Positions 43,460-52,492 of a stretch of DNA of 64,000 bases are shown piece by piece. A model generated the notes under the pieces. The model ran no database searches, was not told the origin of the DNA, and saw nothing but the letters and a program-made list of their open reading frames with translations. A program made the translations under genes and the position numbers. This DNA is from Acetobacter indonesiensis (GTDB lineage: Bacteria > Pseudomonadota > Alphaproteobacteria > Acetobacterales > Acetobacteraceae). The DNA lies in contig NZ_BAMW01000045.1 in the NCBI RefSeq assembly GCF_000963945.1, positions 1-64,000 of the forward strand. The letters run 5' to 3'. Position 1 is the first letter of the stretch. Every line of letters begins with the position of its first letter.

Positions 43460-43927
43460 ATGATCCGCGTTCAGGTTCAGCAGGACGAGTTTGATATGGG
43501 CGCAGAAATGGCTGCTCTGTCCCGTATCTCGGGCGCTGTTGGCGGGATGAGTGTGTTTATGGGGCAGGTCCGCGGGAATCAGGGCGATGGGCTAGAAAGC
43601 CTGACGCTTGAACATTACCCGGGCATGACCGAAAAAATGCTGATGGGTTTGGCTGAGGAAGCGTTCAGCCGGTTTCATTTGTTGGGCTGCACTGTCATCC
43701 ATCGGGTCGGCATCATGTATGTGGGGGACCCAATTGTTTTTGTCGGTACAGCAGCCAGCCATCGTGCAGCAGCCTTACAAGCCACAGCCTTTCTGATCGA
43801 CCGCCTTAAAACCGGCGCTCCGTTCTGGAAGCTTGAACGCTTTACAGATGGCCGCAGTCACTGGGTGGATGCGCGTGAGACAGATGATGCCGCAGCCGCC
43901 GCGTGGGACGATCCAAGCAAAGACTAA
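43460..43927 (+). CDS. moaE: Molybdopterin synthase catalytic subunit
   Basis: The large subunit (155 residues) of the MoaD-MoaE complex, which turns precursor Z into molybdopterin in the cytoplasm. The conserved tail segment DRLKTGAPFWKLE holds the active-site lysines, and HRVGIMYVGD with AASHRAAA lies before it. moaA, moaB and moaC are not in the window; moeA lies 7.4 kb away on the other strand. The gene is convergent with bioA across a 198-base gap. Confidence 0.95.
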   Translation: MIRVQVQQDEFDMGAEMAALSRISGAVGGMSVFMGQVRGNQGDGLESLTLEHYPGMTEKMLMGLAEEAFSRFHLLGCTVIHRVGIMYVGDPIVFVGTAASHRAAALQATAFLIDRLKTGAPFWKLERFTDGRSHWVDARETDDAAAAAWDDPSKD

Positions 43928-44125: not shown

Positions 44126-45421
44126 TCAGGATGAAAGCACTCGATAAATGGTGTTTGCCAGTGTCTTCAAATCGTCAGGTGTGATGGTGAACGCAGGGGT
44201 CAGGTAAACAATATTCCGGAAGGGACGGATCCATACGCCTTCTGCAATAAATTTCTGACGCAGTGCGTCCGGATTGGAGATTTTTTCAAGCTCCACCACG
44301 CCAATAGCCCCCAAAGTTCTGACATCCTTGACGCCCGGTAGCGCTCTGCACGGTTCCAGCGTTTCGGTCAGAATGGCGTTGATTGTCTGCACCTGGTGCA
44401 GGCGGGGTTCGCTTTCAAACAGGTCAAGTGATGCATTGGCGCAGGCACAGGCCAAGGGGTTGGCCATGAATGTGGGGCCGTGCATCAAAGCGTGTTCGGG
44501 GTTATCGGACAGGAAAGCGTCAAACACGTGGCGGCGTGCCACTGTTGCCGCCAGCGCCATTGTGCCGCCCGTTAGCGCTTTAGACAGCGTGACAATATCG
44601 GGCACGATCTCTGCCTGTTCGTAGGCGAACAGCGTGCCAGTGCGTCCAAAGCCGGTAAAAATTTCATCCAGAATAAGCAAAAGCCCGTATTCGTCAGCTG
44701 CCTTGCGCAGTATGCGCAGAACATCAGGGCTATGAAACAGCATGCCGCCAGCGCCCTGCACCAGAGGTTCTGTCAGAATAGCCGTTAGCTCATGGGCATG
44801 CTGGGCCAGAAGGCGGAGAAATTCGGCTGTGCTGGCATCATCAACTGGCAGGGGGGCAATGACGTGCTGAGCCAGGACCGTGCCATACAGGTGATGCATC
44901 CCTTCTTCCGGGTCGCACACGGCCATGGTGGCCAGAGTGTCTCCATGATAGCCGCCTTTGAAGGCCAGCATTTTTGTGCGTCCGGTCTCCCCTTTGTTCA
45001 GACGGTATTGAATGGCCATTTTCATGGCAACCTCAACAGAAACCGAACCAGAATCGGTGAAGAATACGCGCTCCAGATCACCGGGCAGCATGGCACACAG
45101 GCGGGCGGCCAAGCGAAGAGCCGGTTCATGCACCGTGCCGCCAAACATAATGTGCGGCATGGTGGCAAGCTGGGCTTCTACAGCTTTTCGAATATGTGGG
45201 TGGTTGTAGCCGTGGCAGGCTGTCCACCACGCGGCGACACCATCTATCAGCTCGCGACCGTCAGCCAGTTCAATACGTGTGTCGTGTGTTCGCACGGCCG
45301 CCAAAGGAGGCGAGGCCGTTTTCATCTGTGAATATGGGAGCCAGATATGTGGCAGCCCTTTTTCATACCAGTCTGGGGCAGTCTGACGGGACGTCATTAG
45401 GCTGGGTGAGGGGGCTGACAT
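44126..45421 (-). CDS. bioA: Adenosylmethionine-8-amino-7-oxononanoate aminotransferase
   Basis: Transfers an amino group from SAM to KAPA, giving DAPA in biotin synthesis. A class III PLP aminotransferase of 431 residues: the cofactor lysine is Lys281 in LSKALTGG, the ring-stacking Asp252 is in LDEIFTGFGRTG, and WTACHGYNHP lies at 67-76. It is transcribed away from bioF across only 62 bases, so both operons share one control region; I see no palindrome for BioR or a BirA-type repressor there. Confidence 0.95.
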   Translation of the reverse strand: MSAPSPSLMTSRQTAPDWYEKGLPHIWLPYSQMKTASPPLAAVRTHDTRIELADGRELIDGVAAWWTACHGYNHPHIRKAVEAQLATMPHIMFGGTVHEPALRLAARLCAMLPGDLERVFFTDSGSVSVEVAMKMAIQYRLNKGETGRTKMLAFKGGYHGDTLATMAVCDPEEGMHHLYGTVLAQHVIAPLPVDDASTAEFLRLLAQHAHELTAILTEPLVQGAGGMLFHSPDVLRILRKAADEYGLLLILDEIFTGFGRTGTLFAYEQAEIVPDIVTLSKALTGGTMALAATVARRHVFDAFLSDNPEHALMHGPTFMANPLACACANASLDLFESEPRLHQVQTINAILTETLEPCRALPGVKDVRTLGAIGVVELEKISNPDALRQKFIAEGVWIRPFRNIVYLTPAFTITPDDLKTLANTIYRVLSS

Positions 45422-45483: not shown

Positions 45484-46677
45484 ATGACGCGGTTTGATCA
45501 TCTTTTCCAGCAGGGGCTGGAGAGATTGGCGGAACAGGGGCGTCTTCGCACGCCACGCTCGTTGAACCCTGTAGGCCATGGCCTGCTGCAACGGGAAGAC
45601 GGCACTGCTCTGGTTGATTTCTCCTCAAATGACTATCTGGGGTTGCGGCAACACACCCGATTGGTGCAGTGCGCCAATGAATGGGGGCGGCGATATGGTG
45701 CAGGCTCTGGTGCCTCGCGCCTGGTAACGGGCACCAATTCTGCCATGCAGACCTTGGAGGCACGGTTGGCCGCGCTGAAGGGGATGGAGGCAGCTTGTAT
45801 TCTGTCTTCTGGGTGGCAGGCAAACGCAACGCTTGTGCCTGCTTTGGCGCGTCTTTCTGTAGAAGTGACGGGCGAACCGCCGGTGGTGCTGGTTGATAAA
45901 CTGATTCATGCAAGCCTGTATCATGGATGCGCCGCGGCTGGTGTCAGGCCCGTGCGGTTCAGGCACAATGATGTCCAGCATTTGCGTGCGCTTCTTCAGA
46001 AAGAGGCGGACACGCCCGGTCTGAAAATTGTTCTGACAGAAAGCGTGTTCAGCATGGATGGGGACCGTGCGGACATGGTTGCACTTTCAGAACTTTGCCG
46101 AGAGCACGACGCTTTTCTCTGTGTGGATGAAGCCCATGCAACGGGTATTTTGGGTAAAAACGGCAAAGGGCTGGCGGATGGGCTGGCCGATCTGGTTATT
46201 GGCACATTCAGCAAAGCGTTGGGTAGTATGGGGGCGTTTGTGGCGTCGTCCTCCGCCGTGTGTCGCTGGCTGGTGACAAGCGGTTCGGGGTATATTTATT
46301 CTACAGCGCCCTCGCCAATGGTGTTGGGGGCAGTAGAGGCTGCTCTTGACCTTTTGCCCACGGCTGACATGGAAGAGGCCAGACAGCGTGTTGCATTTTT
46401 AGCCGAACGGTTCAGGCAGAAAATGCACGCGGCAGGCTTGGATACAGGGCCGTCATCTACCCAGATTGTTCCTGTTGTGGTGGGGGCCGAGCAAACGGCT
46501 TTGTATCTCTCCCATCTAGTTGAAAACGCTGGTTTTCTGGCGGTTGCCATTCGTCCTCCCACTGTTCCGCCGGGGGCGTGCCGTTTGCGGGTTGTCATGC
46601 ATGCCCAGCATACTGTTAAGCAGGTGGACAAGCTGGCAGATGCAGTGTGCACTGCGATTGGTCAGGTAGCCCAATGA
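45484..46677 (+). CDS. bioF: 8-amino-7-oxononanoate synthase
   Basis: Condenses pimeloyl-ACP with L-alanine, the first ring-assembly step of biotin synthesis. The alpha-oxoamine synthase fold is shown by YGAGSGASR (71-79), DEAHATG (215-221) and the PLP lysine Lys244 in GTFSKALGS. The 397 residues are a normal length. The stop codon overlaps the start of the next gene as ATGA, indicating coupling with the BioH-like hydrolase. Confidence 0.95.
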   Translation: MTRFDHLFQQGLERLAEQGRLRTPRSLNPVGHGLLQREDGTALVDFSSNDYLGLRQHTRLVQCANEWGRRYGAGSGASRLVTGTNSAMQTLEARLAALKGMEAACILSSGWQANATLVPALARLSVEVTGEPPVVLVDKLIHASLYHGCAAAGVRPVRFRHNDVQHLRALLQKEADTPGLKIVLTESVFSMDGDRADMVALSELCREHDAFLCVDEAHATGILGKNGKGLADGLADLVIGTFSKALGSMGAFVASSSAVCRWLVTSGSGYIYSTAPSPMVLGAVEAALDLLPTADMEEARQRVAFLAERFRQKMHAAGLDTGPSSTQIVPVVVGAEQTALYLSHLVENAGFLAVAIRPPTVPPGACRLRVVMHAQHTVKQVDKLADAVCTAIGQVAQ

Positions 46678-47360
46678 CGCTCCAACCCGTTTTTGTGCAT
46701 GGATGGGCGTGTGGTGTGGATGTGTGGCAGCCACTGTCTGCTTTGTTGCCTGCTGATTCCGCCTGCTTTGTCGATTTAGGGTATTTTACTTTTTCTGACA
46801 CAGTGCCTCTCGGCTCGAAGTGTCTGGAGCAGATTGAGGCTGACCGTCCCATTTTGGGGATTGGCCATTCTCTGGGGTTGATGTGGCTTCTTGCGCAGCG
46901 GAAGTGGCCAGAGGGTAGCCGCTTTATTGGCATCAATGCTTTCTCGCGTTTCACGCAAGATGAGGGTTTTGCTCAAGGCGTAGCCCCACGGGTTTTGGCC
47001 CGTATGGCAACCGGACTTCAGCGAGCCCCTGAAGATGTGGTGAATAATTTTCGTGAGCGCTGTGGTTTGCAGCCTGTTGAAGGGGCATCACTCCAGATCA
47101 GTGCTCTGCAAGATGGTTTGCAGATGCTTATGACCGGTGACGTGCGCTGTTCGGCGCAGGAGCTTACCCAGCATAGGCAGCGTGATTTGCTGGTCCTAGC
47201 CGGGGCGGCAGACCCTATTGTCAGTCCGGCCATGACGAGGGCTGCTTTTGCGCCAGAAACACTTATCGTGTGGGAGCAGGGTGGTGGTCATATGTTGCCT
47301 TTGACCCATACCCGATTTTGCGCGGATCAGATCCGCCAGTTTATGAACGAGACGTCCTGA
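46674..47360 (+). CDS. BioH-like pimeloyl-ACP methyl ester esterase
   Basis: A 228-residue alpha/beta hydrolase placed to release pimeloyl-ACP from its methyl ester after BioC-primed elongation. The HGWACGVDVW start, nucleophile Ser66 in GHSLG, Asp180 in GAADPIV and His206 in GGGHMLP form the expected triad, and DGLQMLMTGDVR matches BioH's late helix. BioG, BioK, BioJ and BioV do the same job in other lineages; the sequence is closest to BioH by eye, but no search was possible. It sits between bioF and the bioCD fusion with an overlap of four bases and a gap of one. Confidence 0.8.
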   Translation: MTLQPVFVHGWACGVDVWQPLSALLPADSACFVDLGYFTFSDTVPLGSKCLEQIEADRPILGIGHSLGLMWLLAQRKWPEGSRFIGINAFSRFTQDEGFAQGVAPRVLARMATGLQRAPEDVVNNFRERCGLQPVEGASLQISALQDGLQMLMTGDVRCSAQELTQHRQRDLLVLAGAADPIVSPAMTRAAFAPETLIVWEQGGGHMLPLTHTRFCADQIRQFMNETS

Positions 47361-47361
47361 T

Positions 47362-48789
47362 ATGACGCAGATTACTTCGCGACAAATCCGTGTGCGAGAC
47401 GCATTTGATCATGCTGTCGATTATGAGGCTGCTGCAACCGTGCAGCGTATTGCCGCGCGACACCTGTTTGAACGTCTTCAGGCTCGGTTGGCGGCGCGTA
47501 AACCGGCGCGTATTCTTGAATTAGGATGTGGCACAGGGTTTCTGACGGAAAAGTTGCGTGCAGCGTGGCCGGATGCCGAAATTGTTGCCACAGATATTGC
47601 CCCATCCATGCTGGAACGCGCGCGACGCCGTGTTGGTGGAGGCGTCACTTTTAGAGTGATGAATGCTGCTGCCATTGAGGATGAACTTGGGGCGTTTGAT
47701 GTTGTCTGTGGCAATCTGGTGTTTCAGTGGCTGGAGCAGCCGCAACTAGCGCTTGCGCACTGGGGCGATAGACTGAAAGCCGGTGGCATTGTTGCGTTAT
47801 CCACCTTGTTGGACGGTACATTTCGGGAGTGGCAGGCAGCGTGTGCGCCCGAAAAATCGGGAAGCGGGCTTTCCCCTTATCCAGAACACTCACAAATAGA
47901 GGCGTGGCGACCTGCCTTGTTTAGTGGCGAGTGGAGTGTTGAAAGCTGTGTGCAGACTTTTCCAAATGGCGCACAGTTTCTTCGGCATCTAAAGCAAACG
48001 GGAGCCTTTATCCCGCGCCGCGATCATACCCCTATGCCGGTCGGAGCGTTGAAGCGCAGTCTGGCACGCTTTGATGCTGGGGACAGCTTTGTTACGTGGC
48101 ATCTGGCGTATGGCTGCTTTCAGAAGCCGCCACGCGCAGGGGTATTTGTTACGGGTACGGACACAGGGGTTGGGAAGACTTTTGTTTCTGCGTGTCTGGT
48201 TAAGGCATGGAGTGCGCTTTATTGGAAACCGCTTCAAAGCGGACTGGCTGATGAAGCTGGTGATACACCGACAGTTCAAATCCTGACGGGAAGCAGCGAA
48301 AGGGACTGTCTGCCACCAGCGGGTGCATTTCAGGCTCCGTTATCACCAGAAGCCGCAGCAGATGCGGAAGGTGTGGTCATTGACCCAGCTGATCTTGAAT
48401 TGCGCATGCAGCAGCCTGACCGCCCCATGGTAGTGGAGGGGGCAGGTGGTCTGATGGTGCCTGTTACAGAGAAAGTGATGATGAGTGACCTTGCTGTGGA
48501 ATGGGGGCTGCCCGTGGTGCTGGTCGCGCGAAGCGGTTTGGGCACTTTGAACCATACGCTGCTTAGTCTTGAGGCACTGCGTCGGCGGGGTGTGGCTATT
48601 GCCGGCGTTGTATTGAACGGGCCGCTAAATCCTGCAAACCGTCAAACAATCGAGCAAAAAGGGAAGGTGCGTATTCTTGCGGAAATACCGCATCAACCTG
48701 ACGTGTCAGCAAAAACTGTGGCTGAAATTGCCAAGATGTTGCCCTCATGGGAACTCTTGACTGAAAAGTCTCGGGGAGAGCGGGAGTAG
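47362..48789 (+). CDS. BioC-BioD fusion: malonyl-ACP O-methyltransferase plus dethiobiotin synthetase
   Basis: One 475-residue frame carries two full biotin enzymes. Residues 1-250 are BioC: VRDAFDHAVDYE, the SAM loop ILELGCGTGF (51-60) and FLRHLKQTGA near 206. Residues 256-475 are BioD: P-loop GTDTGVGKT (265-273), lysine in YWKPLQSG (289), SPEAAAD near 328 and EGAGG (359-363). Each half has the length of a free-standing enzyme and no stop or frameshift separates them. BioC starts pimelate synthesis while BioD acts two steps before biotin, so the fusion links the first and penultimate steps. bioB is not in the window. Confidence 0.9.
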   Translation: MTQITSRQIRVRDAFDHAVDYEAAATVQRIAARHLFERLQARLAARKPARILELGCGTGFLTEKLRAAWPDAEIVATDIAPSMLERARRRVGGGVTFRVMNAAAIEDELGAFDVVCGNLVFQWLEQPQLALAHWGDRLKAGGIVALSTLLDGTFREWQAACAPEKSGSGLSPYPEHSQIEAWRPALFSGEWSVESCVQTFPNGAQFLRHLKQTGAFIPRRDHTPMPVGALKRSLARFDAGDSFVTWHLAYGCFQKPPRAGVFVTGTDTGVGKTFVSACLVKAWSALYWKPLQSGLADEAGDTPTVQILTGSSERDCLPPAGAFQAPLSPEAAADAEGVVIDPADLELRMQQPDRPMVVEGAGGLMVPVTEKVMMSDLAVEWGLPVVLVARSGLGTLNHTLLSLEALRRRGVAIAGVVLNGPLNPANRQTIEQKGKVRILAEIPHQPDVSAKTVAEIAKMLPSWELLTEKSRGERE

Positions 48790-49024: not shown

Positions 49025-49693
49025 TCAGTGATAACGGCGGATAAGTCCTGCTAGCTTGCCCTGAATTTTCAGGCGTTCTGCCGGAACAATCCGTGTTTCG
49101 TAATTTGGGTTGGCTGGTTCCAGAGCAATTGTATTGCCCTTACGGCGCAGACGTTTGAGTGTCACATCATTATCGTCAATTAGCGCGACAATAATCTGGC
49201 CATTTTCCACGCTTTCTGTGCGACGGATAACGACATAATCTCCGTCCATGATGCCCGCATCAATCATGGAATCACCTGTTACTTCCAACGCATAATAATC
49301 GCCGGTGCCAACCAGTGTCATCGGGATATCAAGGAAAGAATCGGTATCTGCCATTGCCTCAATAGGCAAACCCGCAGCGATACGCCCATAAAGCGGTACT
49401 TTGAGTGTCTGTGCGTTCGCGCGGGAGAAGTCCGCTCGGACGACATTGGACGGCAATGTTTCCGGTGTAGCCTGAGCCATTTCAGGAAGCTGGATGACTT
49501 CGAGCGCACGGGCGCGATGATGGTGGCGACGCAGAAAGCCACGTTCTTCAAGGCCGGAAATAAGACGATGGATACCTGATTTGGAGCGGAGCCCCATGGC
49601 TTCCTTCATTTCATCAAACGAAGGAGAGAAGCCGGTCTGCTTAAGGTGCGAATCAATAAAGAGCAGAAGTTTGTGCTGTTTACGTGTCAGCAT
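49025..49693 (-). CDS. lexA: LexA repressor
   Basis: Represses SOS genes and cleaves itself when RecA is activated. In 222 residues the winged helix-turn-helix comes first (TRKQHKLL...SPSFDEM), the cleavage site is Ala107-Gly108, and the catalytic pair is Ser142 (in GDSM) and Lys180. The ATG at 49693 gives the usual MLTRKQ opening; a longer start at 49702 adds only three residues. Its own promoter carries an SOS box (49737-49751), so it is probably autoregulated. It converges with bioCD. Confidence 0.96.
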
Positions 49694-49736
49694 CAGGGGC
49701 ACCTCGGGGCAGGATTAAGCGATTTATTTTGTATTT

Positions 49737-51292: not shown

Positions 51293-52492
51293 TTAGGGAA
51301 GACGCATGATGTTGCATACCGTGCCAGCCTTAACGGCTGGTGCATGGGGAGCGCGAATAAGCAGCGCATTGCTTTTGGCCAGAATATTCAATTGGGCCGA
51401 ATCTTGAGACGCAAACGGTGTGGCAAGTGGAAGCTGACCATCGGGTTGCGGCGTTAGTGTGCACCGTAAAAAATCCTGCCTTTGATCATTCTGCTTCAGG
51501 TCACTCCCTAGAATGGCTGTTTCAGTTTCCAGTTTTTCACTGACCTTCTGGCCTATCAGGGCGCGGATGGCTGCCTGAACAAACACGAGCGAACACACCA
51601 TGGCAGCCACAGGGTTGCCGGGCAGGCCGATCATAGGGGTTTTGCCCAGTTGGCCTGACATAAGTGGTCGGCCCGGACGCATGGCAATTTTCCAGAAATC
51701 GAGTTCAAGTCCATGCGGCTTGAATGCGTCGCGCACCAAATCATAAGTGCCTACGCTGGCTCCGCCGATGGTGACCAGTAGATCAAGGTGGCTGGCGTGT
51801 TCTATGGCAGCAGAAAGAGACTCACCGTTATCACGTGCCACAGGAAGCAGGATGGCGTCCGCGCCCAGTGAATTAAGATAAGCCGTGACCATAAAGGCAC
51901 CGGAGTTGACGATGGAATCGGGTTGCGCAGGGTCCCCGGGTAAAATGATTTCATCTCCAGTGGCCAGAATGCCCACACGTGGACGGCGTGAGACCGTCAA
52001 CCACACATGGCCAGCTGCTGCGGCCAGCCCGATATCACGAGCAGTCAGCAAGTGACCGGCGGGAAGCACTGTTTCTCCCCGCTGAAAATCCTGCCCCTGT
52101 TTGCGAATGAATTGACCCTGTTGGCCATCTGCCAGCAGCGTGACGGTGTTTCCATCGCGTTGCATGTTTTCCTGGATCAGCACGGTATCAGCCCCGGTAG
52201 GGATCTGGCTGCCGGTAAATAGCCGGATACAGTGGCCTTTTGTGACGGTCAGGCTGGAGGGATGCCCGGCAGGGGCTTCCCCAATAATGGTGAGCGTCGC
52301 ACCCTTTTGTGCGTCTTCAGCGCAGACGGCGTATCCGTCCATTGAGGATACGGAAACGGGTGGATTTGAAAGGCGCGCGAGAAGCGGAGACGCAAGAACC
52401 CGACCACAGGCAGAGGCGATTGAAACCGTTTCCTGACCACAGGGGGCAAGTTTTTCAAGGATTCGGGCACGCGCAACTGCCACATCCAGCAT
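51293..52492 (-). CDS. moeA: Molybdopterin molybdenumtransferase
   Basis: Inserts molybdate into adenylated molybdopterin, the last step of basic cofactor synthesis. The 399 residues show the MoeA order: an N-terminal region with PVSVSSMDGYAV near 43-54, the LFTGSQIPTGADTV core near 90-103, a MoCF domain with GILATGDE and SGAFM, then GGASVGTYD and LPGNPVAAM, and a small C-terminal beta domain. It is convergent with the OprB porin gene (19 bases) and divergent from rpmG. Confidence 0.94.
   Translation of the reverse strand: MLDVAVARARILEKLAPCGQETVSIASACGRVLASPLLARLSNPPVSVSSMDGYAVCAEDAQKGATLTIIGEAPAGHPSSLTVTKGHCIRLFTGSQIPTGADTVLIQENMQRDGNTVTLLADGQQGQFIRKQGQDFQRGETVLPAGHLLTARDIGLAAAAGHVWLTVSRRPRVGILATGDEIILPGDPAQPDSIVNSGAFMVTAYLNSLGADAILLPVARDNGESLSAAIEHASHLDLLVTIGGASVGTYDLVRDAFKPHGLELDFWKIAMRPGRPLMSGQLGKTPMIGLPGNPVAAMVCSLVFVQAAIRALIGQKVSEKLETETAILGSDLKQNDQRQDFLRCTLTPQPDGQLPLATPFASQDSAQLNILAKSNALLIRAPHAPAVKAGTVCNIMRLP

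Follow-up and report, generated by a model that had tools for sequence, protein, structure and literature searches.

A fused BioC-BioD gene in a biotin locus of Acetobacter indonesiensis and its probable history of fusion and fission in acetic-acid bacteria

A stretch of 64,000 nucleotides from contig NZ_BAMW01000045.1 of Acetobacter indonesiensis (the window) carries a biotin locus in which one gene, bioCD, appears to encode two enzymes. BioC converts malonyl-ACP to its methyl ester, whereas the dimeric BioD adds a carboxyl group to its substrate and forms the ureido ring. The locus raises the question of whether bioCD is a real and working fusion, and how and why it came about. An earlier note, made from the letters of the sequence, had described a single 475-codon frame with a BioC domain to about residue 250 and a BioD domain from about residue 256. 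The frame is open from start to stop, NCBIfam and Pfam models place two full-length domains on it, and the spans of these models agree with the proposed borders (Table 1). The bioCD gene is very probably a true bifunctional biotin enzyme that arose by an early fusion in acetic-acid bacteria and was later split again in some lineages. The N-terminal domain would methylate malonyl-ACP and start pimelate synthesis, and the C-terminal domain would close the ureido ring to give dethiobiotin. The most likely arrangement is two independent active sites at a 1:1 ratio with no channel between them. From the sequence we infer both catalytic activities, and likewise the oligomeric state and the absence of channelling. 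A search of the genome itself with bioCD gave three matching places; among the matches listed, the other one matches at 28% over residues 45-149. The nearest named relative is from A. senegalensis (70% identity), and all seven named relatives found are from Acetobacter. AlphaFold2 models of the window protein with seven Acetobacter relatives reached a mean pLDDT of 62.6 and a pTM of 0.42, with the junction (residues 243-259) below 50, which is too weak for domain packing.

Table 1. Features of the biotin locus, with positions in the window
Feature	Position	Strand	Evidence
bioA, divergent	44126..45421	-	TIGR00508 532.4 bits, above cut-off 405; 62-bp gap to bioF
bioF	45484..46677	+	TIGR00858 383.7 bits, best model, below cut-off 426.45
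BioH-like alpha/beta hydrolase gene	46674..47360	+	PF12697; TIGR01738 50.9 bits, far below cut-off 206.95
bioCD, fused BioC-BioD gene, 475 codons	47362..48789	+	ATG 47362 to TAG 48789, no internal stop
BioC domain (predicted malonyl-ACP O-methyltransferase), residues 1-255	47362..48126	+	TIGR02072 over 15-255; profile match to 8x8i
LELGCGTG motif, residues 52-59	47515..47538	+	six of eight positions invariant in 32 rows
Junction FQKPPRA, residues 253-259	48118..48138	+	none of ATG, GTG and TTG occurs in frame over the 20 codons preceding the P-loop
BioD domain (predicted dethiobiotin synthetase), residues 260-475	48139..48786	+	TIGR00347, AAA_26, solved BioDs
GTDTGVGKT motif, residues 265-273	48154..48180	+	conserved across BioD rows

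The gene row runs bioF, BioH-like gene, bioCD, with bioCD last and bioA divergent. The start of the BioH-like gene at ATG 46674, which gives a 4-nt overlap with bioF, was chosen by inference, and the longest frame begins at GTG 46647; its end is separated from bioCD by a single base. By eye, the hydrolase retains a GHSLG serine motif and the late Asp and His. The earlier description of a compact operon stands for bioF, the BioH-like gene, bioCD and the divergent bioA, and fails for bioB, which lies on the same contig at 112156-113070, about 63 kb from bioCD. The BioH-like hydrolase is likely a pimeloyl-ACP methyl ester esterase and probably belongs to an unnamed branch of these enzymes. By Pfam, lexA (49025-49702) is convergent with bioCD and lies 235 bp downstream of it, and the molybdopterin synthesis genes moaE (43460-43927) and moeA (51293-52492) flank the biotin region. 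Promoter-like sites between 45300 and 49100 number 2 against 2.1 expected, and Rfam at gathering scores gave no match in the window.

The BioC half matches model TIGR02072 over residues 15-255 (model positions 2-244 of 244) with 158.1 bits. This is the best model for the N-terminal half despite a score below the cut-off of 184.95, and the half is labelled BioC-type because that cut-off is missed. The same model matches all 32 scanned members (the window and 31 relatives). Six free BioCs of relatives, scored on trimmed stretches, also fall below the cut-off (144.5-176.2 bits), so the low score of the fused half is no sign of decay. A profile of these BioC domains searched against the PDB has its best match, over nearly the whole length, in 8x8i, a solved malonyl-ACP O-methyltransferase (E 2.4e-27). 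The LELGCGTG sequence is taken here to be the SAM-binding motif. Residues E53, G55, C56, G57, G59, D78, Q122 and W123 are invariant in the 32 BioC rows, and the half lies together with bioF, an esterase-type gene and the BioD domain, a gene context taken as a mark of BioC. It diverges faster than the BioD half (dN 0.33-0.46 versus 0.15-0.28, with dS saturated), and dN is well below dS in six of seven pairs, those with a computable dS.

The BioD half is recognized by TIGR00347 over residues 262-419 with 149.5 bits, above the cut-off of 83.3, and by Pfam AAA_26 over residues 260-451. Solved dethiobiotin synthetases match it with a best E of 2.3e-19. Across the 32 rows, aligned with the solved BioDs, most positions of the P-loop, KP-Q-[ST]G, EGAGG and LGT-NH motifs are invariant or nearly so. 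GTDTGVGKT is presumed to be the P-loop, and a catalytic role is assumed for it and for the other three motifs. Both domains are full length and have conserved motifs. A chain in which one half only is active, for instance a working BioD joined to a decaying BioC, would fit the sub-cut-off score and faster evolution of the BioC part and the RefSeq name of the Azospirillum homologue, which is dethiobiotin synthase only. This is highly improbable in view of the constraint on BioC (dN against dS), its invariant motif residues, the equally low scores of free BioCs and the BioH-like esterase gene, the expected partner of BioC, directly upstream. With the BioC half below its cut-off and the BioD half above, the name given to the protein is dethiobiotin synthase, and its genome can seem to lack bioC. 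This mismatch suggests a reason why databases may hide bioCD.

The fused gene is found well beyond this genome, in genome samples that are partial, and fusions may also exist outside the groups named below. In Acetobacter, 47 of the 49 genomes searched have one full-span bioCD match; three of the 47 have a stop flagged inside the match, and their ORFs show both domains in one frame. In the remaining two genomes the halves match on separate contigs. Among the matches listed, a full-span match occurs in 80 of 397 Acetobacteraceae genomes. Three of the 80 (G355, G377 and G413) have a stop between the halves and are not fused, and the unbroken fusion is present in 77 of 397 genomes from 17 genera, again among the matches listed. 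Six of the 77 had a flagged stop, and all six proved intact on reading. Fused loci established by ORF reading number 76: 66 from Acetobacteraceae, 3 from Azospirillum and 7 named Acetobacter records that are apparent repeats of others. The frame lengths reported for genome matches seem to read through stops and were excluded as evidence.

In the order sample (150 genomes) only Acetobacteraceae rows occur among the matches listed. The class sample (385 genomes) contains six suspect cases outside Acetobacteraceae, none of which is a single frame: G079, with a reported frame of 471 aa, and the full-span matches with stops in G536, G643, G548, G572 and G540. In G572 a separate BioD ORF is present, with no BioC ORF at E 1e-5. 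Family f155 contributed nine loci, some of them reported with long frames, and these were likewise rejected: bioC and bioD are separate ORFs in eight, and the ninth (L190) yielded no BioC. The phylum sample (398 genomes) gave no stop-free full-span match outside Acetobacteraceae among the matches listed, in a search that could have overlooked fusions with a weak BioC half, and in many of these genomes the halves match at different places.

In the plasmid collection 198 records matched; ten of them, seven from Azospirillum and three from Acinetobacter, span 80% or more of the query at a single place. The one annotated record among the Acinetobacter matches shows separate bioC and bioD. In the seven Azospirillum records the match is a single piece, and the annotation reads "bioD: dethiobiotin synthase", which names the BioD half alone. 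Three of the seven loci (L179-L181) were read; each has bioCD as one CDS with bioF and a hydrolase gene before it and bioA and bioB after it, all in one row, and a longer junction, e.g. FRKDDARPRGVF. The suspicion that the fusion might be standard in Acetobacteraceae and annotated as such is half confirmed: the fusion is common among the acetic-acid bacteria within the family and is therefore not special to this genome, and the annotations seen, those of the seven Azospirillum records, give the second half only. Other gene contents were also observed in Acetobacteraceae. Five loci (L078-L082) have bioD and no BioC match in the fetched stretch, with bioF beside bioD in four of the five; their pimelate may come by another route. 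Three loci of genus g108 (L075, L076 and L166) have bioF, a hydrolase gene and bioC without an adjoining bioD, and L166 has a Hint-domain protein past bioC.

Fused genes share a common plan at the junction, in which the last BioC strand (e.g. AYGCFQK) leads through a few residues into GVFVTGTDTG, where BioD starts. A blastp-based count puts the length of the junction at about 4-7 residues, with variation among fused genes. The window has no candidate start codon for BioD near the border (Table 1), and in the 76 fused loci an ATG occurs within 20 codons before the P-loop in 9 and a GTG, as the valine codon just before the P-loop, in 51. Over 12 junction codons the window differs from seven congeners at 0-2 first, 0-2 second and 6-9 third positions per pair. 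This third-position bias shows that the reading frame is translated across the junction and is under constraint there. A frameshift in the linker, introduced by sequencing or assembly, had been named as the finding that would undo the fusion. That explanation has nothing in its favour and is practically inconceivable given the codon pattern and the intact frame in the 47 Acetobacter genomes, in the 77 family genomes of 17 genera (among the matches listed) and in the seven named Acetobacter records, and a BioC-then-BioD fusion in a biotin gene cluster is supported. In split relatives the two genes are often closely packed. Among the 27 split loci that entered the trees, 14 have a candidate start of BioD placed 4 nt ahead of the bioC terminus; the putative start is a few to some tens of bases off in the others and farther in L093. 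Fusion from such an overlap is a small step. In L058 and L059 bioC and bioD share a frame and are parted by one TAA, with a new ATG three bases on; their BioD carries a proline-rich N-terminal extension of about 15 residues.

The history of the gene was examined with one operon and one marker gene. The biotin-protein tree (BioF, BioC, BioD and BioH; 56 loci, eight of them non-family loci used as outgroup) needs four changes between fused and split states, of which starred branches force two. A single clade of all fused rows is rejected (p 5e-5), and in-family split rows held together are not (p 0.057). With six more loci there are still four changes, starred branches force three, and holding the in-family split rows together is weakly rejected (p 0.022). 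The RpoB tree (59 genomes, a quick method with SH-aLRT support only, three genomes without a bioC-bioD pair being outside the change count) also needs four changes, with three forced by starred branches, and rejects a single fused clade (p 3e-65). In both trees a clade of 17 split genomes (L058-L067, L069-L072, L074, L077 and L083) and two singles (L068; L073) are nested within fused lineages. With a split root, a two-rate model that includes fission beats a fusion-only model (2dlnL 37.9 for RpoB and 14.3 for the biotin tree). Deep branches are weak, and the placement of L043 and of Azospirillum is unsure; the latter attaches close to the root at weakly supported positions (38/50 and 55/94).

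Repeated independent fusions of bioC and bioD in several lineages, never split again, would be easy between adjacent and often overlapping genes and would fit the variation of junction length from 4 to 7 residues. Azospirillum, with its longer junction and unsure place, may hold a second fusion or have acquired the gene by transfer. A history of repeated fusions without fission is unlikely, since it requires nine fusions on the RpoB tree or seven on the biotin tree (five or six with branches below 90 collapsed), against one fusion and three fissions, and its model is the worse one on both trees. The history that fits bioCD best is one early fusion with some three later fissions, or possibly a single one. 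In the fusion, a pair of adjacent and in many cases overlapping genes would have lost the stop of bioC and the start of bioD early in the acetic-acid-bacterial lineage; fission would have followed once at the minimum and, more probably, about three times. The fission may have been a single one because grouping the in-family split rows is not rejected or only weakly so.

Why the two domains were joined is a separate matter. The BioC and BioD steps are far apart and non-consecutive, which makes channelling or a hand-over of substrate unlikely, and channelling was set aside for this reason. A more plausible benefit than hand-over is that the two domains share one dose or that BioD stabilises BioC, and there may be no benefit. 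As a refinement of the bifunctional enzyme, and no alternative to it, BioD could serve as a folding or solubility partner and a dosage cap for an aggregation-prone, potentially toxic BioC. In the text available of a review (PMC11089781), BioC is described as having a strong tendency to form inclusion bodies on overexpression, and an active Bacillus cereus BioC as blocking fatty-acid synthesis. The accessible part of the BioGC paper (PMC3494674) makes the case that the amount of esterase relative to BioC and BioF is set by translational coupling, and cites the B. cereus BioC as a monomer. Split relatives manage without the fusion, and this purpose is rather unlikely. It is also doubtful that dimeric BioD maintains the fusion by keeping BioC folded and capped at 1:1, with re-split lineages having first altered BioC or its expression. 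If BioD does stabilise BioC, the Acetobacteraceae would offer a natural series in which one pair of enzymes was fused and parted again. Relatives with the fused gene, and those in which it was apparently re-split, are in any case a ready set for testing the use of fusing non-consecutive enzymes.

Fusions of BioC to an operon neighbour exist in the form of BioH-BioC, in which the partner is an esterase and not BioD. No description of a BioC-BioD fusion was found in the literature searched, which includes few subscription papers. In the passages available, "bioCD" denotes what are called "two genes" in PMC11264691 and primer names, at two occurrences, in PMC7026016, and PMC10715153 contains no mention of biotin. 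According to the portion seen of PMC9544090, the natural fusions of biotin enzymes identified are few. The closest comparison is BioG-BioC of Bacteroides fragilis, which was shown to work in E. coli (PMC3494674, in part). Like bioCD, it is a natural fusion of BioC with a bio-operon neighbour of a non-consecutive step, and related species have separate genes; unlike bioCD, its partner is the esterase BioG, joined by a ten-residue flexible linker rather than by about 4-7 residues, and the spread of bioCD over 17 sampled genera (among the matches listed) also sets the two apart as far as that text goes. BioWF likewise joins two biotin enzymes in one chain, but these catalyse consecutive steps of the pimeloyl-CoA route, with a proposed tunnel, and Arabidopsis BioA-BioD resembles bioCD as a bifunctional enzyme of biotin synthesis that includes BioD, but is eukaryotic and has as partner BioA, which catalyses the step just before BioD (both from the part available of PMC9544090). 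The E. coli bioBFCD operon resembles the locus in that bioC and bioD are neighbours and bioA is divergent, whereas its polypeptides are separate, bioB is in the row and bioH is elsewhere (PMC11089781, in part). BioC-BioD thus lengthens the short list of biotin enzyme fusions, as an architecture that is distinct from BioGC, BioWF and BioAD, is widespread in acetic-acid bacteria and, where its annotation was seen, goes by the name of the BioD half in public genomes.
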